Assembly (NCBI GenBank): GCA_903952205.1
Contig: CAJBEZ010000108.1
Coordinates: 1 to 64,000 of the forward strand
Reading direction: 5' to 3'
Origin: an uncultured Desulfomonile sp.
GTDB taxonomy: Bacteria; Desulfobacterota; Desulfomonilia; Desulfomonilales; Desulfomonilaceae
DNA length: 64,000 nt
The notes below the pieces were generated by a model that did no database searches, was not told where the DNA came from, and saw only the letters and a list, made by a program, of their open reading frames with translations. Shown here in pieces: positions 7,994 to 32,631 of the stretch. Numbering within the stretch: position 1 is the first letter of the stretch; each line of letters opens with the position of its first letter. A program made the position numbers and the translations under genes.

Positions 7994-8485
7994 ATGGTAT
8001 ATTTAGATATGGTCGATGAAGCTATCCATCGCGGAACCTTGGTGAATGTAATTGGAACTGGAATATTGATCCAGGGTCCATCCGGCGTTGGAAAGTCACT
8101 TGCAGCCATCAGTCTCATACGAAGCGGGCACAGGCTTGTAGCGGATGATCTGGTTGCTGTTGCCCGGCATGAATCGTTCGGTCTCGTGGGACGCGCGGTG
8201 GAAGAAAATGTTCGAATTGAAATCAGAGGACTAGGAGTCTTTTTCGCCCTGAGTCTTTTCACTGATTGCACTATGATTTCTTCACCTATCAACCTGGTTG
8301 TGGAATTGACCAAATACGTAGAGGAAAGAGACGCCGGACGTCTTGAACCATTGATCACCGAAATAAAAATGCTTGATTATCCTATCAAGAAAATTCTAGC
8401 TCCTGTAACGACGGGAACTGATCCCGGTCTGCTGGTTGAACTAGTTGCCCGAACACAGATAAATGTAAATCTGGAGAAAAAGTGA
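7994..8485 (+). CDS. hprK: Short HPr kinase/phosphorylase (catalytic domain only)
   Basis: The 163-residue protein covers only the catalytic half of HprK. The Walker A sequence GPSGVGKS is at residues 28-35, HRLVADDLV carries the catalytic acidic residues, and EIRGLGVFF is the family signature. The N-terminal domain of Firmicute HprK is absent, as in the short proteobacterial forms. The enzyme phosphorylates and dephosphorylates a serine of HPr and so ties the PTS to regulation. Its stop codon overlaps the GTG of rapZ (GTGA), and PTS EIIA, EIIB and EIIC genes follow, so a PTS-regulatory role is well supported. HPr and enzyme I are not in the window. The Shine-Dalgarno sequence is weak. Confidence 0.9.
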   Translation: MVYLDMVDEAIHRGTLVNVIGTGILIQGPSGVGKSLAAISLIRSGHRLVADDLVAVARHESFGLVGRAVEENVRIEIRGLGVFFALSLFTDCTMISSPINLVVELTKYVEERDAGRLEPLITEIKMLDYPIKKILAPVTTGTDPGLLVELVARTQINVNLEKK

Positions 8486-9396
8486 GCAGACGCAAAATAG
8501 TTATTGTGACAGGAATGTCTGGTTCTGGGAAGTCTACAGTGGCAAAAACCCTGGAGGATGCGGGATACTTCTGCGTGGACAATCTTCCGGTTGATCTGGC
8601 CCCTAAACTTATGGACCTGATGGAGGCCGGCGGAACTGAATTGCAGAAAATAGCCCTTGTCATAGATTTGCGTCAGAGAAAATTTTTCCCTCGTTATTCT
8701 GAGATTCTGAATTCCCTTCAATTGCGTGACACCACTCTGGAGATTTTGTTCCTTGACGCCAGGGACGAAGTTCTCATCCGAAGATATAGTGAAACAAGGC
8801 GGCAACACCCTCTGGCAATTGACGGCGATGTCACAGATGGGATCAACAAAGAACGGTCCGAGCTTAAAGAAATCAAGGATCGGGCGGATAGGATTATTGA
8901 TACCTCAGACATCACAGTACATCAGTTGAGAGACACCATTAAGAAAATCTACTCAGACACTGTTTCGGTAGATCTACAAATCATTATAAACGCCTTTGGC
9001 TTTGGAAAGGGGCTTCCTCTGGGGTCGGACCTGGTTTTTGATGTCCGTTTCTTACCCAACCCTTTCTTTGTAGATGATCTTTCGAAAAAAGACGGTAGAG
9101 ATCACGATGTAATTGAATGGGTCCTGTCAAAATCCGATACCAAGGTTTTTCTAGAAAAAATGTTTGATTTGTTGGATTTCCTTTTACCTCTTTACATAAA
9201 AGAAGGAAAACAGTACCTTACTCTTTCGATTGGTTGTACCGGAGGTCGCCACAGGTCAGTCGTGGTGAGTTCATTTATAGCTAGGAAGCTTGCTGATCAG
9301 GGCTATCGCCATGTCAGACTGAAATTGCGTGAACTTGGTATCGAAATTCCAGTACACAGCGTGGTTGAAAAGATTACAGAAGGTTTCGAGTCGTAG
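8482..9396 (+). CDS. rapZ: RNase adapter / nucleotide-binding protein RapZ
   Basis: This is a 304-residue P-loop protein of the RapZ (YvcJ/YhbJ) family. Walker A is GMSGSGKS at residues 11-18, the DNLP motif follows in CVDNLPVDLAP, and the C-terminal signature GCTGGRHRSV is intact. In Escherichia coli RapZ presents the sRNA GlmZ to RNase E and controls glucosamine-6-phosphate synthesis; in other phyla it binds nucleotides and its targets are less clear. The GTG start overlaps the hprK stop by three bases, so the two are translationally coupled. The hprK-rapZ-PTS order recurs in proteobacteria and suggests a carbon/nitrogen signalling module. Confidence 0.93.
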   Translation: MSRRKIVIVTGMSGSGKSTVAKTLEDAGYFCVDNLPVDLAPKLMDLMEAGGTELQKIALVIDLRQRKFFPRYSEILNSLQLRDTTLEILFLDARDEVLIRRYSETRRQHPLAIDGDVTDGINKERSELKEIKDRADRIIDTSDITVHQLRDTIKKIYSDTVSVDLQIIINAFGFGKGLPLGSDLVFDVRFLPNPFFVDDLSKKDGRDHDVIEWVLSKSDTKVFLEKMFDLLDFLLPLYIKEGKQYLTLSIGCTGGRHRSVVVSSFIARKLADQGYRHVRLKLRELGIEIPVHSVVEKITEGFES

Positions 9397-9462
9397 GCTC
9401 TATTTAACAAACGCGTTAAGCAAGAAATCTCGCGTTAGACTTTTTCTTAGAAAGATTATTAG

Positions 9463-9891
9463 ATGGTAGGAATTCTCGTGTTGACTCACGGAGAACTCGG
9501 AGTTAAATTTCTGGATACCGCTCGCCTGATTGGTTTGACGTCAGACGAAAGGGTCTTGGCTCTGTCCATTGATCCAACGGCCTCTCCTGATTCCCTTCGA
9601 GATCAGGTGGCAAAGGCAATAGCCAAGGTGAATGCCGGGTCTGGAGTGCTCATATTGACGGATCTTTTCGGAGGAACTCCGACCAATGTTTCATTGTCTT
9701 TTCTAGAAGAAGGCAAGATTGAAGTGGTTACAGGTTTGAATTTGCCCATGTTAATAAAGTCCGTCAACGCCAGGCATGGATATGACCTTAAGGGCCTGGC
9801 TCAACTGTCGGCGGATGCGGGCAAGGAGAACATTTACAGAGCTTCCGACGTCTTAAAGCAGAGGCGACCAAAGGGCGGCTCCTCTTCTTAA
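9463..9891 (+). CDS. PTS EIIA component, mannose/sorbose family
   Basis: This is a 142-residue EIIA of the mannose class. The phosphorylatable histidine is H9 in GILVLTHGELG, and the second signature LILTDLFGGTPTN is near residues 63-75. In the phosphorelay it receives phosphate from HPr and passes it to EIIB. It begins 67 bases after rapZ, and a weak inverted repeat (AACGCG at 9410-9415, CGCGTT at 9431-9436) followed by CTTTTTC lies in that gap and might attenuate transcription. Because the locus lacks an EIID gene, the protein may act in regulation rather than sugar uptake. Confidence 0.92.
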   Translation: MVGILVLTHGELGVKFLDTARLIGLTSDERVLALSIDPTASPDSLRDQVAKAIAKVNAGSGVLILTDLFGGTPTNVSLSFLEEGKIEVVTGLNLPMLIKSVNARHGYDLKGLAQLSADAGKENIYRASDVLKQRRPKGGSSS

Positions 9892-9931
9892 TGGCGGACA
9901 TCCCCAAGAAAGCGGTTGACGATAGTAATCT

Positions 9932-10435
9932 ATGCCAATAGTTCTTTTTAGAGTTGATGATCGATTTGTACATGGTCAAATCCTGCAAGGATGGCTTCCC
10001 TCCACACGCGCCCAAGAGCTTTTTATAGCAAATGACGCATTGGCTCAGGATGATGTCCAGAAAATGATCATGGAGTGCGCTATCCCTTATAACGTAAAAA
10101 TAGTTATCGATACTGTTGATGAAGTCGCCAGATTACTCAAGACTGAAGAAGTATCAGACATCAGACGCATGGTTATAGTCGACACGCCGGTTGACGCCCT
10201 GAGGCTAATAAGGGCCGGTGTGCGGTTTGGTTCACTCAACTTGGGAAACATGTCGGTCAGCGACGCCAAAAAGCCTATTACAAGATCACTTGCTTTAGGC
10301 GAAGAATCCATTGGGGCCATCAGGGAAATACTAAAGGAAGGCATTGGAATAAATGTCCAGAGTGTTCCTTTCGAGAAGCCAATTGATTTTTGTGATTTAT
10401 GCGATTCTTATATGCTGTGTTCAGCTTCTCAGTAG
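9932..10435 (+). CDS. PTS EIIB component, mannose/sorbose family
   Basis: The 167-residue protein has the EIIB-Man signature VDDRFVHGQILQGW near its N-terminus, where H14 is the expected phosphorylation site. A Rossmann-like fold of normal family length (about 160) follows, including RFGSLNLGNMS. It would accept phosphate from the EIIA encoded 40 bases upstream. The tail carries four cysteines (CDLCDSYMLC and a preceding FC), unusual for EIIB and possibly metal- or redox-active. That last point is only an observation. Confidence 0.9.
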   Translation: MPIVLFRVDDRFVHGQILQGWLPSTRAQELFIANDALAQDDVQKMIMECAIPYNVKIVIDTVDEVARLLKTEEVSDIRRMVIVDTPVDALRLIRAGVRFGSLNLGNMSVSDAKKPITRSLALGEESIGAIREILKEGIGINVQSVPFEKPIDFCDLCDSYMLCSASQ

Positions 10436-10578
10436 AGTATTTGATTCGCCGACAATTTCTCAGCTTCAGGCATAGAGTGTTTGATATCCATCTGTATCCA
10501 TCTAATTTATTGAGTGGTGAGCAGATTTTGCTAGGAAAAGCCTGTCTATTGTTTCACTCATAAGTTCACAGGTCAGGG

Positions 10579-11268
10579 ATGCTTAAAGAGGCTTTTTGGG
10601 CCGGCGCTATAGGCGGCTTATTCTGGTTGGACCGATATCAAATCGGTCAATTGATGCTGTCCAGGCCGGTTGTAGTGGGGCCTGTCATTGGATGGGCGCT
10701 AGGCAGTGTTGCGATTGGACTGGCAGTCGGTACGCTCTTCGAAGTCTTATGGCTCAGACGCCCACCGATAGGCGGATTCATAGCTCCGGAAGTAACATTT
10801 TCGGCCTCAATCGCCGCAGCTACCGCTACCATAGTTGGTAATGAGACAAATTTTGACATCATCGCTCTGGCTCTCCTTAGTTTTATGCTTTTCATGCCGC
10901 TTTCCTTCCTCGGTAGCAGACTGGACCTTGTTTTGCGAATTGGATTGGGGAAACTCGCCATTCCTGCGGAATTGGCCATTCTTGACCGCTCCAGGCCAAA
11001 GATTCTTTTTTATTTCATAGCTTCTCTGGGATTAGGGTTCACAGTCTGTTTCATAGCCCAGGTTCCAATTATCATTCTCGGGTCATTGGTCTTGGGGCCT
11101 CTAGTGTCCGCTTGGCCGGAAAATATGGTTCCGGCCCTAAAATTGGCGTATTTTTCCATCCCTGCTATAGGAGGGTTGGACATGCTGGCCGGGAATTTTG
11201 AAAGAGCGCCGCTTGCGCTCTTCCTGCTGGGCGTGACCTTTTCTCTCGGTTGTTACTTTCTCCTGTGA
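10579..11268 (+). CDS. PTS EIIC component, mannose/sorbose family
   Basis: This is a 229-residue integral membrane protein with about six to seven hydrophobic segments. It contains the EIIC-Man features VVVGPVIGWALG and an early loop GGLFWLDRYQIGQLMLSRP. EIIC together with EIID forms the sugar channel in this PTS class. No EIID gene follows here: the next gene is rimI. It lies 143 bases after EIIB, so it may have its own promoter or be weakly coupled. The substrate cannot be told from sequence. Confidence 0.85.
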   Translation: MLKEAFWAGAIGGLFWLDRYQIGQLMLSRPVVVGPVIGWALGSVAIGLAVGTLFEVLWLRRPPIGGFIAPEVTFSASIAAATATIVGNETNFDIIALALLSFMLFMPLSFLGSRLDLVLRIGLGKLAIPAELAILDRSRPKILFYFIASLGLGFTVCFIAQVPIIILGSLVLGPLVSAWPENMVPALKLAYFSIPAIGGLDMLAGNFERAPLALFLLGVTFSLGCYFLL

Positions 11269-12485: not shown

Positions 12486-13373
12486 TCAAAAAACCCCTAT
12501 AATCACTATGATTCCGTTCGCGAGATAGAAAAGCCTAACTGCCGAACCTTTATCATGTAGCTGTTTCCAGTCTGCGGTTAAGTTTATCATTCTATCAATC
12601 CTTAAAGCCTGAATAATCGTGAGCAGTGAGATATAGCTGATCGGTTTTAGGATCCCGTACCCAACTAGAGCGACAATCGACATCACTGAAGCGGCCATGA
12701 AGAAACGAACGCCCCAGATTGCTCCAGGCTTTCCGAACCTCACCGCCAGTGTAATTTTACCAACAGCCCTATCGTCATCTATGTCGGACAGAGATTGATA
12801 ATACAGAATCATAGCGACCATGAGGGCTATCGGGATAGAAACCCAAAAAGCCTCGAATGTGAACCGGCCTGCTAAAGCGGCATTGGAGCCCACAACCATT
12901 ACCGGCCCCATGTTGATTCCAACAAATATCTCGCCCAGGCCATAGTAACCGTATCTTATGGGGGGAGCCGTATAAAACAGGCTTGAGCCAAAAGCAAAAA
13001 CCATTAATAACGCAAGCCCCCACAACCGGGAAAGATAGAGAATCCACATACCACAACAGAGAGCCAATATGTACAAGACTACGATGGCAGTCCCTATCCG
13101 GCTCGGGCTAATTTTTCCTTCCTGAATTACGCGACTTCCACCTATTGAATCACCATCGTCAACCCCTTCGAAATATTCAAAATAATCGTTGGCAAGATTT
13201 GTCGCAAGGTGTACCAGGAAAGACCCCGTCAGCACTATCATCCATCGGCCAAGACTCCATACGCCCATGCGCCAAGACAAAGCGCCCCCTAAACCCAAGG
13301 GAATCAAGGTCGCCACAAAAAAAGGCGCTCGACTGGCCTGAATCCAGGCTTTCATGGATGATCCCGGGTTCAT
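12486..13373 (-). CDS. menA: UbiA-family prenyltransferase, MenA-like
   Basis: This integral membrane protein of 295 residues and about eight hydrophobic helices has the two aspartate-rich motifs of the UbiA superfamily. The first is NLANDYFEYFEGVDDGD near residue 60 and the second is YYQSLSDIDDDRAVGK near residue 190. SIGGSRVIQEGKIS after the first motif matches the MenA branch, which prenylates dihydroxynaphthoate in menaquinone synthesis. If the organism uses the futalosine route, the substrate would be 1,4-dihydroxy-6-naphthoate and the enzyme an MqnP equivalent. The ATG overlaps the ubiE stop (ATGA), with AGGG about eight bases upstream. It is the last gene of a six-gene minus-strand operon. 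Confidence 0.85.
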   Translation of the reverse strand: MNPGSSMKAWIQASRAPFFVATLIPLGLGGALSWRMGVWSLGRWMIVLTGSFLVHLATNLANDYFEYFEGVDDGDSIGGSRVIQEGKISPSRIGTAIVVLYILALCCGMWILYLSRLWGLALLMVFAFGSSLFYTAPPIRYGYYGLGEIFVGINMGPVMVVGSNAALAGRFTFEAFWVSIPIALMVAMILYYQSLSDIDDDRAVGKITLAVRFGKPGAIWGVRFFMAASVMSIVALVGYGILKPISYISLLTIIQALRIDRMINLTADWKQLHDKGSAVRLFYLANGIIVIIGVF

Positions 13374-14098
13374 TCGGCTATCCCTTCATGTAGATAGGTC
13401 AATCCAAAGGTCAAAGGAAACTTGTTGATCGCTTTAAAACCGGCAAGATCGAACAAATCTCCCAACTGGTCAGGCGTCAGGAAATCCTGGATCGAGTCGG
13501 GAAGATAGGTATAAGCTTCCCTGTTTCCTGAAATCATTCCGCCTACAATTGGAATCATGTGGTTAAGATACCATCTGAAAAAATTTCTTAGTCTTAGGTT
13601 CCTAGGAAAAGTCATCTCTAGCGTAATAACTTTCCCGCCCGGCTTTACAACTCTCTTCATCTCTCTTAGAGCGGCCAGGCGATCAGGAATGTTTCGTAAA
13701 CCAAAAGCGATGGTTACAGCATCAAACTCGGAATCTCCGAAAGGGAGGCTTGTCGCGTCAGCGGCTACAAATTCAATTCTGGCGCCAAGACCCTTCGCCT
13801 GAGTCTTGGTCTCGGCCAATCTCATCATCTTCTCAACAAAATCGGCTCCCGTGACTTGCGCTCTTGGAAACTGTTCCGCGATAGCGATTGCAAGGTCTCC
13901 TGTTCCAGTGGCAAGGTCCAAAATGTTGTTCACATCAGAAGGCAGTCGTCTTGCAGCAAATTTTCTCCAGGCGACATCGCGCCTACCCGACATAATTCTG
14001 TTTAGCAAATCGTAATGAGGTGTAATCGTATTGAAGATTCCTTTGACGGCCGATATCCGCTCGTCCGGCGTCCAGTTTTTGAGAGGCTTGGACTTCAT
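13370..14098 (-). CDS. ubiE: Demethylmenaquinone/ubiquinone methyltransferase
   Basis: This SAM-dependent methyltransferase of about 242 residues carries out the last C-methylation of menaquinone. Motif I is LDLATGTGDLAIAI. The family segments AVKGIFNTITPHYDLLNRIMS, TIAFGLRNIPDR and KPGGKVITLEM are all present. I prefer the ATG ending at 14098, because it overlaps the permease stop as ATGA and has GGAG six bases upstream. An in-frame ATG four codons earlier (14110) also exists. Together with the next gene it gives the last two steps of menaquinone synthesis. Its coupling to an ABC importer and a TetR regulator is unusual. Confidence 0.92.
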   Translation of the reverse strand: MKSKPLKNWTPDERISAVKGIFNTITPHYDLLNRIMSGRRDVAWRKFAARRLPSDVNNILDLATGTGDLAIAIAEQFPRAQVTGADFVEKMMRLAETKTQAKGLGARIEFVAADATSLPFGDSEFDAVTIAFGLRNIPDRLAALREMKRVVKPGGKVITLEMTFPRNLRLRNFFRWYLNHMIPIVGGMISGNREAYTYLPDSIQDFLTPDQLGDLFDLAGFKAINKFPLTFGLTYLHEGIAE

Positions 14099-14835
14099 AA
14101 TTGACTCCATCTACAGTAAATCTTTTCAAGAATATCGAACGTCTCATACAGAATTACGCCCATCACGGCCAACACCAGAATTCCAACGAAAATCTGCGGG
14201 ATATCAGCCCTACCCCATGCGTCAAGTATGTAAAAACCCATACCAAACCGAGTCCCAAGAGACTCCACAAAAAAAAGAACGGCTACCACAGTTCCAGTCG
14301 CAATTCTCAAGGCTGTAAATATCGCGGGCAATGTCGCCGGCCATATAACGTGAATAAAAAGGTCAAGACGATTTCCTCCAAGGCTCAAAAGAGAATGCTT
14401 CGCTGACCTGCTTACACCCCTGGCGGCGTCTCTAGTCGTAATAAGTAATTGAAAAAACAATATCAAAGCCAGCATCATGATTTTACTCAGGTCACCAAGT
14501 CCGAAAATCAGAAGCGCTAAAGGAAGGAACACTATCTTCGGCACTGGATAAGTGAGATAGATCAGTGGCCTCGCAATTCTGTCCGCCCTCCTGCTGGACC
14601 CCAAGAATAATCCAAGGGGCACGGCGACTACGAAAGATATGCATAACGCTGCCATTATCCTAAATGAAGAGGCCCCAACGTTTCTCCAGAATCTGGCGGT
14701 GTCCGCCTCCCGAAAAAGAGTGGCCAGGGTTGAGTAGGGACTTGCAATCGCATTGGGTCCCCCTAGCCATGAACCAACCTGCCACAATCCAATAAGAACC
14801 AATATACCCCAAAGGTAATCCAGTCGACGATTCAA
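14095..14835 (-). CDS. ABC transporter permease, SsuC/TauC family
   Basis: The 246-residue permease has about six transmembrane helices. It resembles the permeases of nitrate/sulfonate/taurine and thiamine-precursor importers. The EAA-like loop that docks the ATPase reads SLGGNRLDLFIHVIWPATLPAIFTALRIATG, spanning about residues 155-185. The start is a TTG overlapping the ATPase stop. With the upstream ATPase and binding protein it makes a complete importer. The substrate is unknown; the downstream quinone genes hint at a quinone precursor or an aromatic compound, which is only inference. Confidence 0.85.
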   Translation of the reverse strand: MNRRLDYLWGILVLIGLWQVGSWLGGPNAIASPYSTLATLFREADTARFWRNVGASSFRIMAALCISFVVAVPLGLFLGSSRRADRIARPLIYLTYPVPKIVFLPLALLIFGLGDLSKIMMLALILFFQLLITTRDAARGVSRSAKHSLLSLGGNRLDLFIHVIWPATLPAIFTALRIATGTVVAVLFFVESLGTRFGMGFYILDAWGRADIPQIFVGILVLAVMGVILYETFDILEKIYCRWSQL

Positions 14836-15593
14836 GTGACTTGCTCCAGTTCTCTTCTAATGGACTGACACAATTCGTAGAAATCTTCAGATTCTTCACG
14901 ATCCGGCTCGCATGCCTTTGGATTGAATATGATTTTACTGATTCTTCCCGGCGCCCCACTCATGATTACTATTCGTTTACCAAGCCTGGCCGCCTCCTCT
15001 ATGTTGTGAGTTACCAGGGCCATCGCAAACCGTCTTTTCCTCCATGCGTTAGACAGTAGTTCCTGCAATCTTTCTCTGGTCAATGTGTCCAGAGCGGCAA
15101 ATGGCTCATCCAGCAACAGCAGGGCCGGATCAAGTATCAAAGCCCTGGCGAGAGCTACTCGCTGTTTCTGGCCACCCGAAAGTTGCTGAGGATAATCATC
15201 CACTTTCGAGGCTATATCAAGTTCAGCCAGTAACGGATCGAGTCGACTCCCATTGACGGATTCGCCCCTGATTTTAATTCCAAGTTCGACATTTTGTCTG
15301 ACAGTTTTCCATGGAAACAATCCATAATCTTGAAGAACTAATGCAGCCTCTCTAGGGGGTTTCTCCAAATTGCTTCCTTTGAATTTGACCGAACCTGAAG
15401 TCGGTTTCTCAAGGCCCGCCAGAACCAGAAGCAACGTCGATTTACCGCAGCCGGATGGCCCTACTATCGCTACAGTTTCCGATGTTCCGAGTCGAAGACT
15501 GATGTCCGATAGCGCTTCAGTCGAACCTGTGTCAGTACCGTATTTTTTGCTCACCTTATCAAGAATAACTACATCAGGGCAGGAGTTGTTCAT
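14832..15593 (-). CDS. ABC transporter ATPase, SsuB/TauB family
   Basis: This 253-residue ATPase has Walker A GPSGCGKST near residue 40, the Q-loop LVLQDYGLFPW, the signature LSGGQKQRVALARAL, Walker B LLLLDEPFAALD and a switch histidine in LVTHNIEEA. QDYGLFPW is typical of the nitrate/sulfonate/taurine subfamily. It energises the permease encoded next. Its start overlaps the end of the binding-protein gene by 20 bases, which suggests tight coupling. Confidence 0.92.
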   Translation of the reverse strand: MNNSCPDVVILDKVSKKYGTDTGSTEALSDISLRLGTSETVAIVGPSGCGKSTLLLVLAGLEKPTSGSVKFKGSNLEKPPREAALVLQDYGLFPWKTVRQNVELGIKIRGESVNGSRLDPLLAELDIASKVDDYPQQLSGGQKQRVALARALILDPALLLLDEPFAALDTLTRERLQELLSNAWRKRRFAMALVTHNIEEAARLGKRIVIMSGAPGRISKIIFNPKACEPDREESEDFYELCQSIRRELEQVT

Positions 15594-16527
15594 TTACCGC
15601 CTGCTCATATTCAATCTCTGAATGAATGACTTTCCTTTGCTTGAGCCATGACAACACGCTGTTCAGAGCGTCTCGATCAGGAGGCGCCAACCGAGGAAAC
15701 TTCGGCACGGGATATTGTGATTTGAGTGATTCCGGCAAACGCACTTGCTCCACCATGATATCTCTTACAGAATCGGGATTTTCATTGATCAGGTTATTGG
15801 CTTCCTCAACCGCAGCCAGAAACCGTCGTGACAGCTCCTCGTTATTCTTAATAAATTCTCGCGTGAAGACCAATACGGTTTGACTTTCCCCCAGACCGGA
15901 ATCATCGCCCAAGAGGCGCGCCCCTTTTGAAATTGCTACGGTCACTAGTGGTTCCGGCAGAGCGGCGGCTTCAATCTGCCCGGTCATAAGCATCTGAAAA
16001 CGAAGCCCTATGTTCTTCGACTCAATTGTGTTTATTGTGTCTTTTGAAACACCATCGTTAACATGAAGCTTTTCGTTGACCAGGTCCACTACTGAGTTTG
16101 AGGATATGGCCACCGGTTTACCGTCCAGTTCCTTGAAAGACCTTGTTTCAGACCCAGGTTTGGCAAGTACCGCAAACATCCTGCGATCAAATCTGGTATC
16201 GTATGTTTTTGCCACAACAACTATGTCTCGACCGTTTCCTCTTAGAATCATGGGCGTCACTAAATCCGCAAAACATCCCTGAAGACTTCCTGAAACCAAT
16301 GCTATATCCTTTTCAGCGGTGGTATTGAATAATATTAGTTCAACGTCCACCCCATGCTTTGAGAAAAGTCCCCTGGATTCGGCGACAAATAGAGGCAATG
16401 CCTGTAGAGCAGGTAAGACTCCGAATTTTATTGCGATATTGTCCTTAGCCATAGCCACTGAATAAGTAACTACTGACAACAAGCATGCAATCAGAAGACT
16501 TTTCGTAACCGTGGGCCTAGTTTTCAT
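15574..16527 (-). CDS. ABC substrate-binding protein, SsuA/NMT1 family
   Basis: The periplasmic binding protein of the importer has about 317 residues. A signal peptide (residues 1-27, TKSLLIACLLSVVTYSVAMA) is followed by a two-lobed NMT1/THI5-like fold (IKFGVLPALQALPLFVAESRG, then GSLQGCFADLVTPMILRGNG). The chosen ATG ends at 16527: it overlaps the tetR stop, has GGAG eight bases upstream and puts the signal peptide at the N-terminus. A longer frame from 16566 adds 13 residues without a better ribosome site. The ligand cannot be read from sequence. Members of this family bind sulfonates, thiamine precursors, riboflavin or aromatics. Confidence 0.85.
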   Translation of the reverse strand: MKTRPTVTKSLLIACLLSVVTYSVAMAKDNIAIKFGVLPALQALPLFVAESRGLFSKHGVDVELILFNTTAEKDIALVSGSLQGCFADLVTPMILRGNGRDIVVVAKTYDTRFDRRMFAVLAKPGSETRSFKELDGKPVAISSNSVVDLVNEKLHVNDGVSKDTINTIESKNIGLRFQMLMTGQIEAAALPEPLVTVAISKGARLLGDDSGLGESQTVLVFTREFIKNNEELSRRFLAAVEEANNLINENPDSVRDIMVEQVRLPESLKSQYPVPKFPRLAPPDRDALNSVLSWLKQRKVIHSEIEYEQAVNEQLLP

Positions 16528-17212
16528 TCTCTGCGCTCCGAGTTTCGCCGTGAATTGAAATCCCATCTCTCAGAAAATCAATCACAGTCTTCACCCAAGT
16601 ATTCAAACCTTCCTGGCTTGCCCTGTAGATACCGGAAGATTCTCCTATAAAATCTGAATAATAGGCTCTAAGCAGTGAATCAAGAAGACTGTATAGAATG
16701 AAGGATATCTTGTCCGTATTTAAGTCGCTCCTCAACTCCCCTTTTGATTTTGCTTCCATAATCAACTCCCCCAGGAAACGCTCAGCGTTTTTCCGGAGTT
16801 CCATCACTTGTTCGGAACCAAACGGAGCTTCTCCTGATTGAAGGAGTTGAAAATATATCCTAGCCATTTGCGGATGCTTGTCTATAAACCGGAATCCGGA
16901 AAGTATGAGTTTTTCTATACGATGAAAGAAATTCTCTCCCGATGTCTCATCTCTGACATTTTTCAAATAGTCCTTGACCAACGCGGAAGAAGCGTCAACC
17001 GTGCAAGTAAATAGCTTTCTCTTTGAGGAGAAGTACTGAAACAAGCTTCCTTTACTTATTTCCGCAGTTCTGACAATGTTATTGACGGAGGCTTTTCTGT
17101 AACCATTTTCAGCAAACTCAGAAATAGCGGAAAGCAAGACCTTTTGTCTTTTAATCGGGGTAAGTTTACGAAATATTTCAGTGCCGATGTCGAACATGTA
17201 ATCCATGGACAT
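16517..17212 (-). CDS. TetR-family transcriptional regulator
   Basis: The N-terminal helix-turn-helix (residues about 20-65: RQKVLLSAISEFAENGYRK, SVNNIVRTAEISKGSLFQYF) is typical of TetR repressors. About 165 residues of helical ligand-binding domain follow. The ATG at 17212 has GAGG six bases upstream. As first gene of the importer-ubiE-menA operon it probably represses its own operon. A perfect 6-2-6 palindrome, TGACCAGATGGTCA, lies 39 bases upstream of the start codon and is the natural operator candidate. Its ligand may be the imported compound. Confidence 0.88.
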   Translation of the reverse strand: MSMDYMFDIGTEIFRKLTPIKRQKVLLSAISEFAENGYRKASVNNIVRTAEISKGSLFQYFSSKRKLFTCTVDASSALVKDYLKNVRDETSGENFFHRIEKLILSGFRFIDKHPQMARIYFQLLQSGEAPFGSEQVMELRKNAERFLGELIMEAKSKGELRSDLNTDKISFILYSLLDSLLRAYYSDFIGESSGIYRASQEGLNTWVKTVIDFLRDGISIHGETRSAENEN

Positions 17213-17250: not shown

Positions 17251-17264
17251 TGACCAGATGGTCA
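17251..17264. promoter_or_regulatory. Candidate TetR operator
   Basis: TGACCA-GA-TGGTCA is a perfect inverted repeat with 6-base arms. It lies in the gap between the divergent tetR operon and glgP, 39 bases before the tetR start. Size and symmetry suit a TetR-family dimer site. No footprint or conservation is available. Confidence 0.5.
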
Positions 17265-17413
17265 TTCTACCTCTTAAATACTAGGTCTGCAACTATTTTG
17301 GATTGTTCCAATCAACTTGACACATTGAAACTCTTCCTGATAGAAATTTGAGACAATGTTACATGGACTCACTTCTCAAGTAGTTTTTCTCCCATTTGCA
17401 AAGAGGTAAAATA

Positions 17414-21857: not shown

Positions 21858-24800
21858 TTAAGAATTGCGAGAGTTTTCCTTTGCGAGTAACCAACCGCCG
21901 GTCTGGCTACGGTTTAGTTTTTTAAGCTCTAGCGCAGCGCGGTCGTGACTTATTCTCTCATTAATAAGATCTTTGTAGATTCTTCGGGAAGTACGACGAC
22001 GTTTTATCGCTGCGCTAACATCAAAAAGCGCTTCAAGGGCGTCTACCAACCGCGTCAACAATCCTTTCTTGGCCGACACTCCGAGATGATCTCTTATGCT
22101 GGTCAATGCAGAGTTCATGGCCGATTCTATCATCAAAAGTGACGCATGAACTCTCTCCTTTTGAGCAGCGGGTAATGATTTAACTATTTCTAAAGTTTCC
22201 TTAACCGTGAGTTCGCACAAGAGGCTATAATCCTGGAATGTCGCCAACTCGTTCAAACTTTGCTCAAAGGGCGCCTCTCCCCTTCTGTCAATAAGCTTCC
22301 GGCACGCAGCGTGACAAATTTCCCATGATTGCCACTTGTAAACAAAATCCAGCCCAGTACCCTTAATATTTTGCAGTCCCATGATCCGATTGAGAAGACC
22401 GGGCGGTGTATGAGCGCATATCGTATCTATGATGCGATTCCCAGACGCATGATAGTCTTCGATAATAATAAATTTGTCCATGAACCATTTTGTGGTTATT
22501 TTCTTAAATTTATTGATCAGTTCACCCTTATCGGCTGTCGCCTTTGTTATTTCATTATGAATCTCCCGGAACTCCGACATCAAGTCCTTTTGTTTCTCAA
22601 CATATCTCCAAATGTCGTCAGCATACGTTTTGGTTTCAGAATTACCTATTAGCTCCCTTAACTCCGGGCTATCCAAGGCCACATCTAAGGCAATCTCCAT
22701 ACTTTCAGCGCCGTTTAGCCCTGAGAGAATGGCGTTCAGTCTGATCAAGACATCCCTTTCGCTGGTTGGAATCCGAAGTCGTTTCGCCAGACCAACCAGG
22801 GAAGATTCAGAAATGGACAAATTTTCTGTCACGGATGATACGGACACAACGCTGTTAATGAAGATTTCCCATTCGTCCAAGATAAACTGTTTTAATCCCG
22901 TGAGGTTCGATCCAATCAGAAAATGGTAGTCTGCGCTCAAATCGTTAACTAGTATCGATGCAAACATCCGTGATCTCGACAACCGGTCGGCACGGTTGTT
23001 TACAACGGTACTGATTATGACATCAGGATTTCTTTGGATGTCAATATCGTCAAAGCCCATCCTAACCCAGTTGCTCAAGGTGGCGTACCGCTCATTTGCG
23101 GACATTCCGTTCACAAACTGAAGGCGGCGGCCAGAAACTTTTGCCGTCGGAAAAACCTTTAGAACCCCGATATCCGGCACGACACGGTCCGCCATTTCCT
23201 TCAGGGCAAAGTTCGGGTCGATACCCAGTTCCTGAACTAGGGTGAGGACTAGCGAGATGTTGTTAGGGTGCTCCTCGTAGGGAAACCTCTCGAGGACATC
23301 TCTGGTTAACATTCCAGATTCCTTCCAATCCGCGGGAACAAACCTTGTATGTAGTTTGCTCGCCGCAGATCTCAGAATTGGTTTCATTTCTTTTTCAGAG
23401 GTTAAAAGAACGCTCTTAGTGGGGATAAAGGACTCCATAGCCTGGGGAATATTTATGCCAGCCGGTCCCTGTATATCTTCATGGTCCGGGTATGCGTTTG
23501 TTATTGTGGAATAGTCATCTACGGACCATTGTCTTTGAAGGATTCTCAAAAACGAAGGGTTCAAACCCATACATTCCCACAAAAAGATCTTACTTTTAAG
23601 CTTGTTTCCCAAAAGCATCATGTCATGATGTTCCCAAATTGTAGCCTTGTCGTAGGGCCTAAAAATGAACATCTCTCGAGTCTTGCCGAAAGGATACGCA
23701 TGAAGGAACATGGCTTCGCAACCCGTAGTCTTCGCCATCAGGCCATAGCCCAGAGACTCAAACAAGGCCGTCTTTAATCGCTCGACCCCGGATTTACCTC
23801 TGGTTCCCCAACCTCCTATGCAAAGCGCAAAACTTTTTCTCGCTTTTTTGATTGACCACCTTACATAGAGGAGCCTGCTTACGAAAAATCCGAGTAGAAC
23901 CGCGCTTAAAATTCCCAATTGGTACAGTGAATTTTCATACGCCGAAAAGAAGTAATCTCTAAACCTGGGCCACAAAAGAGAAAGATCTATTCCGAGGAGA
24001 CTCGGAAAAAATCGCAGCACAGCGCCATCATTCAACGGTTCTCTTTGATCCTTTCTGTGGCTGGTGAACCGGCAATCGACGCCTATAGCCGCCAACGCTT
24101 CCACATAAGACCCCGGTTTTGCGCCCCCGGCTTCGTTCCAATTTCGCAGGTGGGCGTAATGAGAAAAACCAAAGGTCAACCTGAAGAAAGCAATAAGTCG
24201 TTTTATCAAAGATTTGGGAGGAGTAACTTCGGTAACTCCTTCCGCCGTATACAATTTCAGATGCCGGGGAGCCAGGGGTCTTTTGCAAAGACTCGCAACG
24301 TGATCCACCAGGGGAAGATATGGACGCCAGCCTGATTCTGACTCCATGTAAAGAGGTTCACCGGGTACCCTTGTCTCTGTGAGTTCACAACATATGTGCG
24401 ATGGAGCCCTGAGACTGGCCCTCGAAGTCCTTCCTGTGGTATGACTGAACCCCTGCCGTTTGTCAGGCATGGGATTGCGTAATTCATGGATAAATCGCCA
24501 CAGTCTAAAACCGAAGACATCCCCCCTTGTTATTCTGAGACCTCGGGAAGATGATGCTACATTAAGATCTAAATCGTCCTGGCTCATCACTGACAGAACT
24601 CTTCCAAGGAGTTCTTCATTCGCCCCCAGAAGTTCGGATCGACGAATAGACACTGATTGTCCCATACTGATATTTTCGATCCGTTTAATAAGAATACCCT
24701 TGAGTGCCCGAGCTTTCGTGTCGGTAGTAACAAACATGACTTCTCGAGCCATCGCTGCACGTCTTCTCACAGACAGATCCGGACAGTTTCTGTGCAGGTC

Positions 24801-26057
24801 CTCGATGGCGTCAAGGACTGAAGAGTATAATGAATCGGATTCAGAATTGGCGCCCTCCTCTGATAGGCGCTCCACTGTCCGGGAGACCGTTTCGAGTCCA
24901 ACGAGTAGAACAAATGAATCTTTTTCTCCTGTGAAATGATCAATGAAGAAATCTGACACCGGCTTTATGCAGTCTGTTAGAGAAGTCAGAAAACCAATTG
25001 CATTTACAGTCCAGCTCCTGACCTCGGGAACCGCATCTTTTTTCGCGAAGGTTGTCAACTTGTCCAGAAGTCTCAGTCTATGATCTTGAACCTTAGAGCT
25101 GTTGAATTTCTGTGCCAATAATGAGACCAACCCCTGTCGAACATAGGGACTGGGATCGTTAGCAGCGATCCCAATTAGGCCCACCGATTCCTCTACCGTA
25201 TCTTCCGTCTCAGCCTCAAGGGAGAGAACCGCCCTGCGGAGAAATATCCCCTCTCCTCCAACAGGCTGTTCAAATATCCGCTTCACGGCGGTTTTGTAAC
25301 CATTAGAATCGATCAGCCGTAAGGTCTTCAGCGCTTCAACCTTGACCCATATATTTTCTGAAGTCTCGAGGGATGACCTGTAAATGAACCTCAGAGATTT
25401 GGGAGCTAGCCCATCTGACTCGGTAAGGGATGACGTGACAGCGACGATCGAATAAAGACATCTGTAGGCGCCAATCCTGACCCTCAAATCACCCTTGTAA
25501 GCCATTAAGAGGCTGAAAGTCTCTTCAAATCCCGGCTTACGCCAAAATGCCCCTCGTAAGGCGCCTTCATTTTCCACGGCCATTGTTGTTGAAACGATAT
25601 GCCCGATTCTCCCCAATACAAAGCAAATCTGGTATTCAAAGTCGCAGATTTGTTTCGCGAGACGTTCCAGAACCGCGTCGTAAGCAAACCATCTTCGAAG
25701 AGCCTTCCTGTCCCTGACCAAATTCCGTCCTGATGACCCAAGTAATTTGGCCAGACTCATAACGTGTTCGGTTTTCTGGTGTTCAGTTGAGGCTCTTGAA
25801 AGCCTGACATCGAATTCAGATCGCAAGGTTTCAAGATAAGCTATTTTTTCCAGTCTTTTTTTGACTTCCCAACCCAGAAAGTCAATAAGGGTCTCCCCTG
25901 CCCATCGATCGTCAACAGTTGACCTCGAGATTTCGCCCGGCAAGTTCCGGGACTCGAAGTCACGGGAGATTTCATCAATGAGGTCGGAATAAAGATCCTT
26001 TTGCCAGTCCCTTAGACCGGAGAGCAAGAGTCCATTTATTGTCCCGGTAATGTTCAT
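21858..26057 (-). CDS. PgsB/CapB-like polyamide synthase with N-terminal helical repeats
   Basis: A 1,399-residue protein. Residues about 100-500 are HEAT-like helical repeats. One transmembrane segment (QLGILSAVLLGFFVSRLLYV) lies near residue 720. A Mur-ligase-type domain follows with the marks of the poly-gamma-glutamate synthase PgsB/CapB: P-loop GGWGTRGKSGVERL near residue 750, KTTGCEA, WECMGLNP, NAYPDHEDIQGP. PgsB uses ATP to join gamma-linked glutamates. Bacillus PgsB has only about 390 residues, so the helical N-terminus and a helical tail of about 300 residues are additions. The ATG ends at 26057, 56 bases after the barrel gene. A PgsC-like protein in the same operon is the expected partner. 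The polymer's monomer is not known. Confidence 0.8.
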   Translation of the reverse strand: MNITGTINGLLLSGLRDWQKDLYSDLIDEISRDFESRNLPGEISRSTVDDRWAGETLIDFLGWEVKKRLEKIAYLETLRSEFDVRLSRASTEHQKTEHVMSLAKLLGSSGRNLVRDRKALRRWFAYDAVLERLAKQICDFEYQICFVLGRIGHIVSTTMAVENEGALRGAFWRKPGFEETFSLLMAYKGDLRVRIGAYRCLYSIVAVTSSLTESDGLAPKSLRFIYRSSLETSENIWVKVEALKTLRLIDSNGYKTAVKRIFEQPVGGEGIFLRRAVLSLEAETEDTVEESVGLIGIAANDPSPYVRQGLVSLLAQKFNSSKVQDHRLRLLDKLTTFAKKDAVPEVRSWTVNAIGFLTSLTDCIKPVSDFFIDHFTGEKDSFVLLVGLETVSRTVERLSEEGANSESDSLYSSVLDAIEDLHRNCPDLSVRRRAAMAREVMFVTTDTKARALKGILIKRIENISMGQSVSIRRSELLGANEELLGRVLSVMSQDDLDLNVASSSRGLRITRGDVFGFRLWRFIHELRNPMPDKRQGFSHTTGRTSRASLRAPSHICCELTETRVPGEPLYMESESGWRPYLPLVDHVASLCKRPLAPRHLKLYTAEGVTEVTPPKSLIKRLIAFFRLTFGFSHYAHLRNWNEAGGAKPGSYVEALAAIGVDCRFTSHRKDQREPLNDGAVLRFFPSLLGIDLSLLWPRFRDYFFSAYENSLYQLGILSAVLLGFFVSRLLYVRWSIKKARKSFALCIGGWGTRGKSGVERLKTALFESLGYGLMAKTTGCEAMFLHAYPFGKTREMFIFRPYDKATIWEHHDMMLLGNKLKSKIFLWECMGLNPSFLRILQRQWSVDDYSTITNAYPDHEDIQGPAGINIPQAMESFIPTKSVLLTSEKEMKPILRSAASKLHTRFVPADWKESGMLTRDVLERFPYEEHPNNISLVLTLVQELGIDPNFALKEMADRVVPDIGVLKVFPTAKVSGRRLQFVNGMSANERYATLSNWVRMGFDDIDIQRNPDVIISTVVNNRADRLSRSRMFASILVNDLSADYHFLIGSNLTGLKQFILDEWEIFINSVVSVSSVTENLSISESSLVGLAKRLRIPTSERDVLIRLNAILSGLNGAESMEIALDVALDSPELRELIGNSETKTYADDIWRYVEKQKDLMSEFREIHNEITKATADKGELINKFKKITTKWFMDKFIIIEDYHASGNRIIDTICAHTPPGLLNRIMGLQNIKGTGLDFVYKWQSWEICHAACRKLIDRRGEAPFEQSLNELATFQDYSLLCELTVKETLEIVKSLPAAQKERVHASLLMIESAMNSALTSIRDHLGVSAKKGLLTRLVDALEALFDVSAAIKRRRTSRRIYKDLINERISHDRAALELKKLNRSQTGGWLLAKENSRNS

Positions 26058-26113
26058 CCGCAACAACCATAAGTTTTTGGATCATAAATTTTCAAAGAAA
26101 CCGTCCGTTCATC

Positions 26114-29100
26114 TCATGAACCGTTGTGACCAAGGGTTATCGGAGTAAAAAAGCTTTCTGGACCGGGGCTTATATGATTATTCCTGATTTGTGGGACCCG
26201 GCGTTTCCTGATATCTACAAAATCCGCCTCACTGGGACGAAAATCCCTAAGCCCCCTACCATCGCCAAAGAAATAAGACAGGGATATGTAGCCTGACACG
26301 TCCATCTTGTCAAAATCAAAATCTGTCTTACAGAGCAATTGTAACCTTCTTTGAGATATCATCCACCTGTCGCAGGCCAGTTCTACGGCAAGGATGTGAC
26401 GATCACTCGACTTGGTTCGATTGGCGCCGGCAAAGTAAAAGGAGTATTTGTAAACTACGTCCATTTGAAACCGGCCAAGCAGTTGTTTCCAGCCTGCATC
26501 GACCTTTACGTTGTCATAGTTGATAGGACTCAGATTTTGATTTGTCTGCGCGGAGATTCTGGAAAACCATATTGTGTCAAGCCATGGCTTATATTCAAAA
26601 TATTCGCCAAATTTTAGACCAGCTTTGTGCTCAGCCTTGTATTTGGTAAATACATCGTCGTCCACCCACCAGGATGGGAACTGAGTATTGGTTTCCATGC
26701 TTAGAACTCTTCCAAAAACCGAAATTGAGGGCAGGTGAAAGAATTTGGGGGTAATTTCACAGACCTGAGTTACGCTGCCTTCTAGAGTTCCGCAGTATTC
26801 TGCGCTACCTCCGCCAAAGAAACCAAAAGTCTCAGCTCCGGGTTTCTGTATATATAGGCTGGTGGCCAGTCCCACATTCCACGGAAAATTCGTGGGATAA
26901 TAGACAGCGTCTCCAAGAAAACCGATGGTCGGGCCACCGGTTTCCCGAACTCGGGATAGAAAAGTCCCCTTGCAATAACCCGGAAGATATTGTTCGAAAT
27001 ATCGATATGTCGCTGCCACCTCGACGAATTTTGCCTCATCAGGTTTCGAACTTGGAGACGCCTGAGGCGAATTGCTCACCTGAATTGGTTCGTCGACATC
27101 CCTGGGTTTACGATAGGTCCCGCTCAGTGACCAGGTTCCATCCTGCTGTTTGCCAAGCCGATATTCATCGTCGAGGACTACCAGGCGGGGTTCCGCCGCT
27201 GATCCTACCGAAAAAACCGGGCCGGGAACCGCCGCAAAATAAAATTCAATTGGACGTGGAATGGTAAGGTCCTGTTCTGCGGGCGCAATTATTTTCCGTT
27301 GAATTCTAAAAAGAGCCTCCTTCTCACCCTTTCCCGGAGTGAGATTCAATTCGTGCCATCCATGTTCGAAGAACCTGTAGGAAACTACCTGATCTCCATC
27401 CCTCAATTCATCTATTCTAACCCAGGATGGACCCTCTATTTCCGCCCTGACCGGTCTTTGATGCGTGGCAACGTAATAAAGCCGTTCATCCGGTTTCGTC
27501 ATTACTAAATCCAGACATCTCCCGTCGGAAGTTTTTTCACAAAAGTTCACTTTCAGGAATTGGTTCGCATATTTTGTTCTTATCCACACAGATACTCTGT
27601 GTCGTCCGGTGGGTACAGCCAGACGTAGCGCACTTGAAGGATTTTGCCCCGAAAGTGTGAATTCATGAGGTTTTTCATCGTCGAGTTGACAGGTCAGTTT
27701 CATGGCCGCTGGTGGAAGAAATCGCAAGTCCATGAGTGAGAGTTTGATCTCAAGATCGGATGGTTTAAGATTTTCCATTACGAGGATGGTTTTGTCTCGA
27801 CCGGCGACAACACGCTCTCCTGGAGCGACCGGTTCAATAAGAGCTTTTCTAACCCTCAAAGAATCGCCTTCGGGTTCCCATCCTGTCAACCTGACAAATT
27901 TAAGGCCTGCTGTGGCCTGAATAAGACTCAAAGACTCCCAGGCGGTTTTATCGGACAGTCTGGGTAGCAGGCTGCGAATTTCGGGGACGGCTGGATGGCC
28001 CTCGCAAAGCCTCTGCGCTCTAGCCTCAGCTTCGGAGAGTCTAGCTGGCTGGGTCTCACCCCAGTATACCAGCAAATCCATTGCATCCATGACACCCTTG
28101 GAATCATTTTCATCCAACTGTCGTAAAGCCGAAAGAATGTCTCCTCTGCCAAGATCAAGCGCTCGGCGGCGCCCGCCTGGATTCGGATCTCTGATTCTAC
28201 CACGTACAAGGCTTCTCATGCCGGCTAGCAATTTCCAGTGAGAGTTGTCCAAGGCTGGAAGTTCGCGAGGCCTCCATGTCGATCGGATCACCATCTTGTC
28301 GCAGATATAAATCGGACGGGACTCATTTGGAAAAGGTAAAATCGTCAAACAGGTCCTTCCCAAACAGGAAATTCGATCGGTAAACCCCGTTGGTTCCGGT
28401 CTCACAGGACCTCTTAGAGCAGCGTCAACTGTGTCCGGTGTGAGCTGAGGCAAAAGCCCCAGGCTCATTTCAGGGCGCTGTGATTCAAGATTTACGATTA
28501 TGGGGATATCTCCACCATGGACCTCTATATCATGAGGACCTGGACCTAGAGTCAAAATCTTCTGTATCAACTGTCCAGTTTGATGTCTGGAGTCACCGAC
28601 TATGGTCAGTCCTTCGCTTGGCGTGTTGTTGTTAATAGGAGCTATGTATTTCTCATCTCCAGTTTTGATTTGCACCCAACCATTAAGGGGCTGAGTGGAT
28701 CGCTTTACGTGCAAGGGCCTGGCCGTTATTCTAACAGCGACAGGGCCGTATATATTGGCTCTCACTGGCCGCGATGAGCCGGCTTTGAAGCCCCGGAAAT
28801 AGAGGTCCCTTGGAATGCTGTAAAGCGTGACGCCCCCACTATAATCGCTAATGGCGTCAGGTTCTTCAGCCCACCTGTGAGGACCCGGATGATTTGCCTG
28901 CCATATCTCCCATTCTGTGACTGCCTTGACCCGATCATTAATTGAGCAGGATTTCAATTGATCCTGGATTGTCAGGCCGGACCTGATGGTGTCGGCGTAT
29001 CTTTTTCCCAATTCACCAGAATTCCCTAATAATTTGAGAGTCGCTACGTAGGCGCCGCCTTCTACACTCTTGAATGCCGACCAATAATTGCGTTCAGCCT

Positions 29101-31729: not shown

Positions 31730-32631
31730 CGGAGTGTTCCGTCCAGACATTTCATGAAAATTTTGCGCAGATTCTGGTTGACCTTGAACTGCTGACGGAG
31801 TTCATGGCTGATCTCAATGTGAACGAATGTTTTCCTTCCTATATTCCTAAGCAGTTGTCCGCTAATGTTCTCAGTGGCGCCCAGTTCGTTGATGTCAACA
31901 GGATAAACTCTAACTTTTCCAAAGTGGCCATCGGTTAGGCATTTCCGAAGTTCAAGCAACTCCGAGCGAGGTTTGTCGTCCCCTGCGCTTATAATTATAT
32001 CCGCAGATTCCCCCGCCTGCGATCTACGCTTACCGGTCTGAAATCCGTGTATCTGGATTTGATATGCGTCTGGTAGAGTTTCCGCCAAGGCCTTAGTGAA
32101 AGCGGTCAAGTAAGTCCTGGGCAATCTGGCCAAGTCGCAAGTCATGTTTGTCGGTTCGCCTTTTGGATATCTCCTGGCCGTATTCCATGCGGCGGCTGGG
32201 AATTTGCCTTCCAGAAACATGTTGAGACCGATTTTTCCTGTCGCCTCGTCGGTGAATCTGTGAGGCATGATGAGACATCTCTTTTTTTCAGTTATGTCTC
32301 TAAAGAGATAGAAACCTCTTCCCCGTTTTTCATTTTTCTTTTCCATCAGGACAAGAAAGTTGGAATCATCGCTGTGAGCGTGTATCAGGTTGAAACCCAA
32401 GGCTGACCAAGCTGACACAATCTCGGTTCCTGTTTCGCCCCTGAGAGTCCTGGCGAAAAGCTCCTGCGCCTTTTCGAATTCACCTTCCTTAAGTTCAGCG
32501 CAGTCTCCTCCCGCCGACATGTTGTATAGGGACTCAACTTCGGGCCTTTCCGGTATTTTCATATCTGAGCCTAGCGCTATAGTGTTCAGGAACAATGCTG
32601 CCACAAGGCTAAAAAACAGGGTTAACGTCAT
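31726..32631 (-). CDS. Secreted hydrolase-like protein related to the PgsC-tail repeats
   Basis: The 301-residue protein has a signal peptide (TLTLFFSLVAALFLNTIALG). Candidate metal/catalytic residues lie in three blocks: MPHRFTDEATG (H124, D128/E129), IQIHGFQTGKR (H195) and FVHIEISHELR (H271, E273, H276). Their order recalls zinc carboxypeptidase-type folds, including phage poly-gamma-glutamate hydrolases, but I cannot assign a family with certainty. The same blocks occur twice, with the histidines replaced, in the PgsC-like protein of this operon. It overlaps the lipoprotein gene by 23 bases and its stop overlaps the barrel gene's ATG. A role in trimming or releasing the polymer is the simplest inference. 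Confidence 0.55.
   Translation of the reverse strand: MTLTLFFSLVAALFLNTIALGSDMKIPERPEVESLYNMSAGGDCAELKEGEFEKAQELFARTLRGETGTEIVSAWSALGFNLIHAHSDDSNFLVLMEKKNEKRGRGFYLFRDITEKKRCLIMPHRFTDEATGKIGLNMFLEGKFPAAAWNTARRYPKGEPTNMTCDLARLPRTYLTAFTKALAETLPDAYQIQIHGFQTGKRRSQAGESADIIISAGDDKPRSELLELRKCLTDGHFGKVRVYPVDINELGATENISGQLLRNIGRKTFVHIEISHELRQQFKVNQNLRKIFMKCLDGTLR

Follow-up and report, generated by a model that had tools for sequence, protein, structure and literature searches.

A predicted salvage operon for menaquinone precursors with its own TetR-family regulator in an uncultured Desulfomonile

The six-gene locus and its genome

The window analysed here, a stretch of 64,000 nucleotides from an uncultured Desulfomonile sp. 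(contig CAJBEZ010000108.1, positions 1 to 64,000, assembly GCA_903952205.1), carries on its minus strand, from 17212 to 12486, six overlapping genes in the order tetR, substrate-binding protein (SBP), ATPase, permease, UbiE and MenA-like, which we discuss as a candidate operon for menaquinone salvage. An earlier note on this DNA had described a single overlapping operon; all six genes were found in this place and, with the starts chosen in that note, the overlaps of 11 (tetR/SBP), 20 (SBP/ATPase), 4 (ATPase/permease), 4 (permease/UbiE) and 4 bases (UbiE/MenA) were reproduced. The first of these places the SBP start at ATG 16527, with which the protein retains a signal peptide, and the third and fourth use TTG 14835 for the permease and ATG 14098 for UbiE.

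Gene families were assigned with Pfam and NCBIfam models, which agree with each other. The regulator gene (16517–17212) matches TetR_N (PF00440) with 45.4 bits against a cut-off of 24. The SBP (15574–16527) is an NMT1/SsuA-like periplasmic binding protein that passes the NMT1/THI5 cut-off (66.4 against 20.5 bits) and stays under that of SsuA_fam (TIGR01728, 114.4 against 163.5 bits); its signal peptide was read by eye. It is followed by an ATP-binding cassette (ABC) importer ATPase (14832–15593; ABC_tran, 119.5 bits), whose top NCBIfam matches are importer ATPases of the PhnT2, TauB and SsuB type, none reaching its cut-off, and by a permease (14095–14835; BPD_transp_1, 73.8 bits), for which the top models, SaoP, SsuC and TauC, are likewise all under cut-off. 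Together, the exported SBP, the ATPase and the permease make up an SBP-dependent ABC importer. The methyltransferase gene (13370–14098) belongs to UbiE/MenG, the last menaquinone step, both curated cut-offs being exceeded (TIGR01934, 239.7 against 158.35 bits; NF001244, 230.8 against 216). The last gene (12486–13373) encodes a prenyltransferase that passes the UbiA family cut-off (96.7 against 34.2 bits); its top NCBIfam matches are all MenA models, and it passes none of their cut-offs (best 145.6 against 264 bits; TIGR00751, 87.3 against 102.15), so that 'MenA-like' is the right word for it. The two aspartate-rich motifs that have recognised roles in the UbiA superfamily are kept, with minor variants, in the 15 aligned type-M sequences (NDYF..G.D.G and D...D...GK.T.AV).

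The genome from which the window comes is rated 99.99% complete. A search of the whole of it, the SBP gene included, gave zero matches to MqnA/MqnD (PF02621), and no MenB or MenD exceeded its cut-off; MenC, MenE, MenF, MqnC and MqnE were outside this search. MenB- and MenD-like proteins under the cut-offs exist, and under-cut-off MenD matches occur in genomes bearing MqnA/D too. With UbiE and the MenA-like protein present and MqnA/D, MenB and MenD each lacking a qualifying match, what this genome holds is a partial pathway.

Recurrence of the operon and distribution of MqnA/D

Our family sample comprised 18 Desulfomonilaceae genomes, that of the window included. An SBP ortholog is present in 11 of them (E 1e-80 or better, 48–84% identity); the matches in G003, G006 and G008 (26–31% identity, E 1e-11 to 1e-15) were scored absent. 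Eight of these 11 genomes have UbiE adjoining the permease and eight have the MenA-like gene, the gaps lying at contig ends (G004, G015; MenA in G011) and in a missing UbiE in G016. MqnA/D occurs in seven of the 18 with two matches each (G003, G005, G006, G008, G012, G013, G016), an identification that rests on PF02621, as the four MqnA-/MqnD-like proteins scanned from such genomes had no NCBIfam match at 1e-20. An apparent MqnA/D of G007 (28 bits, 1.8e-6) was scored absent because it falls in an NMT1-like gene with permease- and ATPase-like genes behind it (L067). MenD over the cut-off was found in none of the 18. Ten genomes thus have the operon only, six MqnA/D only, one both (G016) and one neither (G002, 82% complete), a near-exclusion (Fisher p = 0.0025, n = 18) which, like all Fisher tests in this work, takes no account of kinship. 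Both states are found inside the genus of the window. Between the window and the genus member G007 the SBP, ATPase, permease, UbiE and MenA genes differ by 0.09–0.16 at nonsynonymous and 0.75–0.82 at synonymous sites. This low nonsynonymous divergence, together with the recurrence in other genomes, shows that the gene order exceeds chance.

One operon-bearing genome belongs to a cultured organism, Desulfomonile tiedjei DSM 6799 (G010): 20,000 bases of its 26,923-base second contig are 100% identical to NC_018026.1. This genome of two contigs carries TetR-SBP-ATPase-permease-UbiE-MenA, and neither MqnA/D nor MenD over the cut-off was found in it. D. tiedjei is said to require 1,4-naphthoquinone strictly. 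In PMC7773648, cultures of D. tiedjei and of a Desulfomonile enrichment received 1,4-naphthoquinone and hemin as supplements, following DeWeerd et al. 1990, with optimal growth as the stated aim.

A scan of a collection of named genomes with short peptide patterns from the SBP alignment, which was not exhaustive and missed D. tiedjei, gave 17 loci, ten of them from known family genomes (two from the same genome) and seven from elsewhere. All six genes are present in Zixiibacteriota (L077), SBP-ATPase-permease-UbiE-MenA in UBA1386 (L082), and SBP-ATPase-permease-MenA in Planctomycetales (L079) and UBP7 (L084). In L080 and L081 (Syntrophorhabdus) the sequence ends within the permease, and in Syntrophus (L083) mqnL-mqnP is followed by the SBP alone, no ATPase or permease having been found in the stretch. 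None of these seven outside genomes, which came with no completeness figure, has MqnA/D or MenD over the cut-off.

Across the phylum, an SBP profile search at E 1e-40 found the protein in 29 of 297 genomes, that is, in 28 besides the window's; this set and the outside set overlap by at least one genome, since L080 and G107, to judge by their length of 11,755, are one contig. Four of the 28 loci have UbiE and MenA adjoining the permease, one (G225) has UbiE without MenA, two are cut by a contig edge (G188, G107), and in 14 the cluster contains mqnP and mqnL. Late-gene-linked importers change partners, which are always last steps, UbiE/MenA or MqnP/MqnL. MqnA/D is present in one of the 18 genomes whose importer is fully linked to late genes, as against 21 of 52 SBP-negative genomes (p = 0.007). 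In a tree of 45 SBPs of this wider importer family with three outgroup paralogs, the 22 of MenA type cluster together (2 changes against a shuffled mean of 16.0) and those linked to mqnP/mqnL are scattered over several branches. MqnL of L143 and MqnE and MqnC of G239 exceed their NCBIfam cut-offs; the MqnP proteins pass the cut-off of a UbiA-like subfamily and not those of the narrow MqnP models. The names MqnB and nucleosidase/deaminase in relatives were set by position and by eye. The operon of G239 (L140, L152) combines TetR, mqnE, mqnC, two futalosine-type genes (by eye), mqnL, mqnP, SBP, ATPase and permease.

A TetR subfamily and a palindrome at menaquinone loci

The tetR gene precedes that of the SBP in 10 of the 11 operon-bearing family genomes, window included, and in G007 it is reduced to a 46-residue remnant with a stop. 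A search of the 18 family genomes with this TetR gave 12 strong matches, the ten operon TetRs and two which precede a gene group containing mqnD in the MqnA/D-bearing genomes G012 and G013 (160.7 and 153.1 bits); the next-best TetR of the family scores 57.2 bits. In this sample the subfamily is confined to menaquinone loci (12 of 12 strong matches).

Thirty-eight bases upstream of the tetR start lies a palindrome, TGACCAGATGGTCA (17251–17264), which we propose as the operator of this TetR. It shares one base with the hexamer TAGAAT (17264–17269, minus strand), the last of the hexamer, which was chosen by eye as a putative −10 box and is repeated upstream in most relatives; the possible −35 element, TTGCAG at 17287–17292, is a poor match, for which reason the promoter scan omitted TAGAAT. 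In the window TGACCAGATGGTCA has a single match where 1.73 are expected at up to one mismatch, which is not significant alone, and the case for an operator therefore rests on recurrence. Exact TGACCNNNNGGTCA was found 31 times in 783,502 bases (56 stretches picked for quinone genes, the surroundings to which this frequency applies), whereas 20 dinucleotide shuffles gave 0–2 matches each. Of the 19 stretches that have this TetR 18 contain it, as do 4 of the 37 that lack this TetR. One pattern scan classed 17251–17264 as terminator-like; the terminators and promoters of that scan are no more numerous than in shuffles. We take the palindrome as an operator because 17 further stretches with this TetR have it too; the protein is predicted to bind there and to be released by a likewise predicted ligand.

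The placing of the palindrome extends beyond the importer. In G012 two exact sites lie directly ahead of mqnE, the first gene of a de novo operon; in G013 the stretch with the TetR has no exact palindrome, and two sites at the other mqn locus of this genome (L066) again precede mqnE. Sites stand ahead of both tetR and mqnL in G164, G031 and G069, one site lies between tetR and mqnE in G239, and in D. tiedjei the palindrome is found about 400 bases ahead of tetR. The four TetR-less stretches with a site comprise the mqnE locus of G013, a lone second SBP gene of G014 and two in which the occurrence is chance-like. Three exact palindromes, at L125:15310, L154:5730 and L057:9080, look like chance occurrences. 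Neither this TetR nor the exact palindrome was found in the mqn stretches of G003, G005, G006 and G008, which means that even within the genus this switch is not shared throughout, and importer clusters without this TetR are mostly without the palindrome too. The lone second SBP of G014 (L034:81-1078) is 48% identical to that of the window and is located near rpsA- and cmk-like genes; the exact palindrome is 44 bases upstream of it, and the contig ends right after the gene.

Proposed function, alternatives and neighbouring genes

We consider it highly probable that the operon is a regulated salvage route in which an importer of a naphthoate or naphthoquinone precursor and the finishing enzymes replace the early pathway, and this suggests that the cell may depend on its neighbours for a vitamin-like building block. 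The SBP would capture in the periplasm a soluble naphthoate-type precursor, most likely 1,4-dihydroxy-2-naphthoate (DHNA), or 1,4-naphthoquinone or its quinol, which the ABC permease and ATPase would import. Next, the MenA-like enzyme would attach the polyprenyl tail, removing the carboxyl group as well should the substrate be DHNA, and methylation of the ring by UbiE/MenG would yield menaquinone; ligand, direction of import and prenyl acceptor are all predictions. By binding the palindrome in its own promoter the TetR may keep the operon repressed until a compound of the quinone pathway releases it, and the whole route would stand in for the early Mqn or Men steps.

We favour this salvage reading because an almost complete genome has the late genes only, with neither MqnA/D nor a qualifying MenB or MenD; because the importer and MqnA/D come close to excluding each other in the family, in the outside genomes and among the linked importers of the phylum; because the partners of the importer are always last-step genes; because menaquinone loci are where the TetR subfamily occurs, its palindrome being found ahead of mqnE as well; because D. 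tiedjei has the operon, has no MqnA/D and is grown with 1,4-naphthoquinone; and because the fold family of the SBP includes a quinone binder, PqqT. The structure model of the SBP (predicted local distance difference test, pLDDT, 93.6; predicted template modelling score, pTM, 0.89) has SsuA (2x26, Z 29.2), TauA, CmpA and their relatives as its nearest solved folds. PqqT with bound pyrroloquinoline quinone (PQQ), a quinone, is near as well (Z about 25, profile E 9e-9), as are MqnD (2czl, Z 22.4) and MqnA (6o9a, Z 16.6). By itself the fold does not single out a ligand.

The earlier note had proposed that a naphthoate or some other aromatic precursor is taken up, or else that the cell adjusts quinone synthesis to a compound which it imports. 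The former now appears, on indirect evidence from gene content, recurrence and the near-exclusion of MqnA/D, to be the best-supported reading; the latter, with the compound taken as unrelated, accounts poorly for this near-exclusion. The note had also named two findings that would deprive the link of its meaning. A gene order unique to this genome was rejected, since the SBP ortholog is present in 11 of 18 family genomes and related clusters occur in the phylum and in other phyla; a full separate set of upstream and terminal menaquinone genes was rejected for the markers searched, as no MqnA/D, MenB or MenD exceeded its cut-off.

Several observations weigh against the salvage of a precursor by this operon. 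The MenA-like protein is under the MenA cut-offs, which weakens the prediction of its acceptor, and the fold of the SBP alone fits SsuA, TauA and CmpA better than PqqT. The terminal steps are partly duplicated in the window genome, by a second UbiE over the cut-off in a glutamate-synthase-like neighbourhood of contig C8 (L037:7975-8718) and by a distant MenA-like protein, below every cut-off, on contig C36 (L063:6190-7146). Importer and MqnA/D occur together in G016 and also in G225 and G278, and among the eight family genomes that are at least 90% complete the exclusion gives p = 0.14. In the phylum sample, where MqnA/D alone represents the early pathway, seven of the 28 SBPs lack a strong match to a late gene in their surroundings (those of G127 and G137 include weak MenA-like matches), and four of these seven genomes have MqnA/D (G186, G211, G235, G112). 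Over all SBP genomes the difference in MqnA/D is therefore not significant (6 of 28 against 21 of 52, p = 0.14); set against the p = 0.007 of the linked loci, this means that the late-gene-linked importers are those paired with a missing early pathway. G239 has no MqnA/D at E 1e-15 despite its MqnE and MqnC, and perhaps represents an intermediate state or has a divergent MqnA/D.

That the importer carries something unrelated to the quinone ring, such as a sulfonate, a thiamine precursor or another nutrient, while the ring comes from a third early pathway and the operon merely groups co-regulated genes, seems unlikely to us. The nearest solved folds do bind sulfonate, taurine and bicarbonate, and a third pathway is conceivable where no early Men or Mqn genes were found (MqnA/D, MenB and MenD searched). 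The importer nevertheless keeps its last-step quinone partners through the change of chemistry between UbiE/MenA and MqnP/MqnL, MqnA/D is absent from 17 of the 18 phylum genomes with late-gene-linked importers, and D. tiedjei is supplied with naphthoquinone (PMC7773648). Even less credible is a set of ordinary menaquinone genes with an importer as chance neighbour, the early genes having been lost to assembly or divergence. In its favour are the draft state of the genomes and the MenB- and MenD-like proteins under the cut-offs; against it, these genes are equally missing from the two-contig genome of D. tiedjei, other phyla have the cluster too, and MqnA/D-bearing genomes have under-cut-off MenD matches as well.

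We regard it as highly improbable, too, that the SBP is not part of a transporter and is instead an enzyme of SBP fold that replaces MqnA or MqnD, and it was rejected as the leading explanation. MqnA and MqnD share the fold of the SBP, genomes with the SBP lack members of their family, and in the Syntrophus locus the SBP adjoins mqnL-mqnP, neither ATPase nor permease having been found in that stretch. However, the SBP has a signal peptide (by eye), and nearly every other complete locus provides it with a dedicated ATPase and permease, whereas MqnA and MqnD act on cytoplasmic substrates. A variant that we count within the salvage reading, possible but doubtful, has a non-carboxylated naphthoquinone or naphthoquinol as the natural substrate, to be prenylated without decarboxylation. 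It would agree with a MenA-like protein under every MenA cut-off and with 1,4-naphthoquinone as the Desulfomonile supplement (PMC7773648); on the other side, the protein retains both MenA motifs, what is added to a medium may differ from the natural substrate, and DHNA is a documented growth factor of a bacterium with menA and ubiE only (PMC9704088).

The salvage route proposed here resembles known partial pathways. Gut genomes with only menA and menG were proposed to use outside precursors, and their importers remained to be annotated, predicted and then tested (PMC4746308), while Porphyromonas pasteri, with only menA and ubiE, was shown to depend on DHNA (PMC9704088); for quinone uptake by Lactiplantibacillus plantarum the routes were yet to be identified (PMC10746273). 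In the first two cases, as in the window, only menA and ubiE/menG are kept and the ring is expected from neighbours; there the genes are scattered and the importer unannotated, whereas in the window a single operon unites importer, enzymes and regulator. Futalosine operons with mqnL-mqnP are similar in that the de novo mqn genes of relatives (G012, G013) and the mqnL-mqnP-importer clusters have the same TetR subfamily and palindrome, but the operon of the window has finishing genes of UbiE/MenA type in a genome without an MqnA/D match. The importer has the fold and domain types of SsuABC/TauABC; unlike these, its parts are all under the curated SsuA, SsuB, SsuC and Tau cut-offs and its neighbours are quinone genes. 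With PqqT the SBP shares its class and only 16–17% identity over the aligned part, and PQQ is a finished cofactor, in contrast to the precursor proposed here. A literature search, with subscription journals mostly outside its reach, found no description of a precursor importer or of this operon.

It is rather likely, in our opinion, that these proteins are the first recognised family of dedicated menaquinone-precursor importers, with branches for MenA and UbiE and for MqnP and MqnL, placed in part under one TetR and operator that also govern de novo futalosine genes, and that lineages have exchanged synthesis for uptake while this switch stayed the same. The operon offers a concrete and testable candidate, with its own regulator, for the importers that PMC4746308 leaves to be annotated, and it ties this candidate to a bacterium in culture, one grown with 1,4-naphthoquinone. 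The SBP family and the palindrome may serve as a genome marker for dependence on quinone precursors, and marker and importer would be of use in culturing anaerobes and in tracing which organisms feed which. If such an importer family under a shared switch exists, the quinone ring would be a shared vitamin among anaerobes, and the naphthoquinone supplement of D. tiedjei would be accounted for.

Beside the operon, at 7994–11268 of the window, lies a row of HPr-kinase-like, RapZ-like and mannose-type phosphotransferase system EIIA-, EIIB- and EIIC-like genes (by eye), the order of which is kept in G007 and G001. Two adjacent and very similar large proteins, outer-membrane-like by eye, are encoded at 245–1180 and 1411–2952, an apparent tandem duplication. 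A series of very large minus-strand genes occupies 21858–38436, and those at 21858–26066 and 35194–38436 resemble, by eye, poly-gamma-glutamate synthesis proteins.

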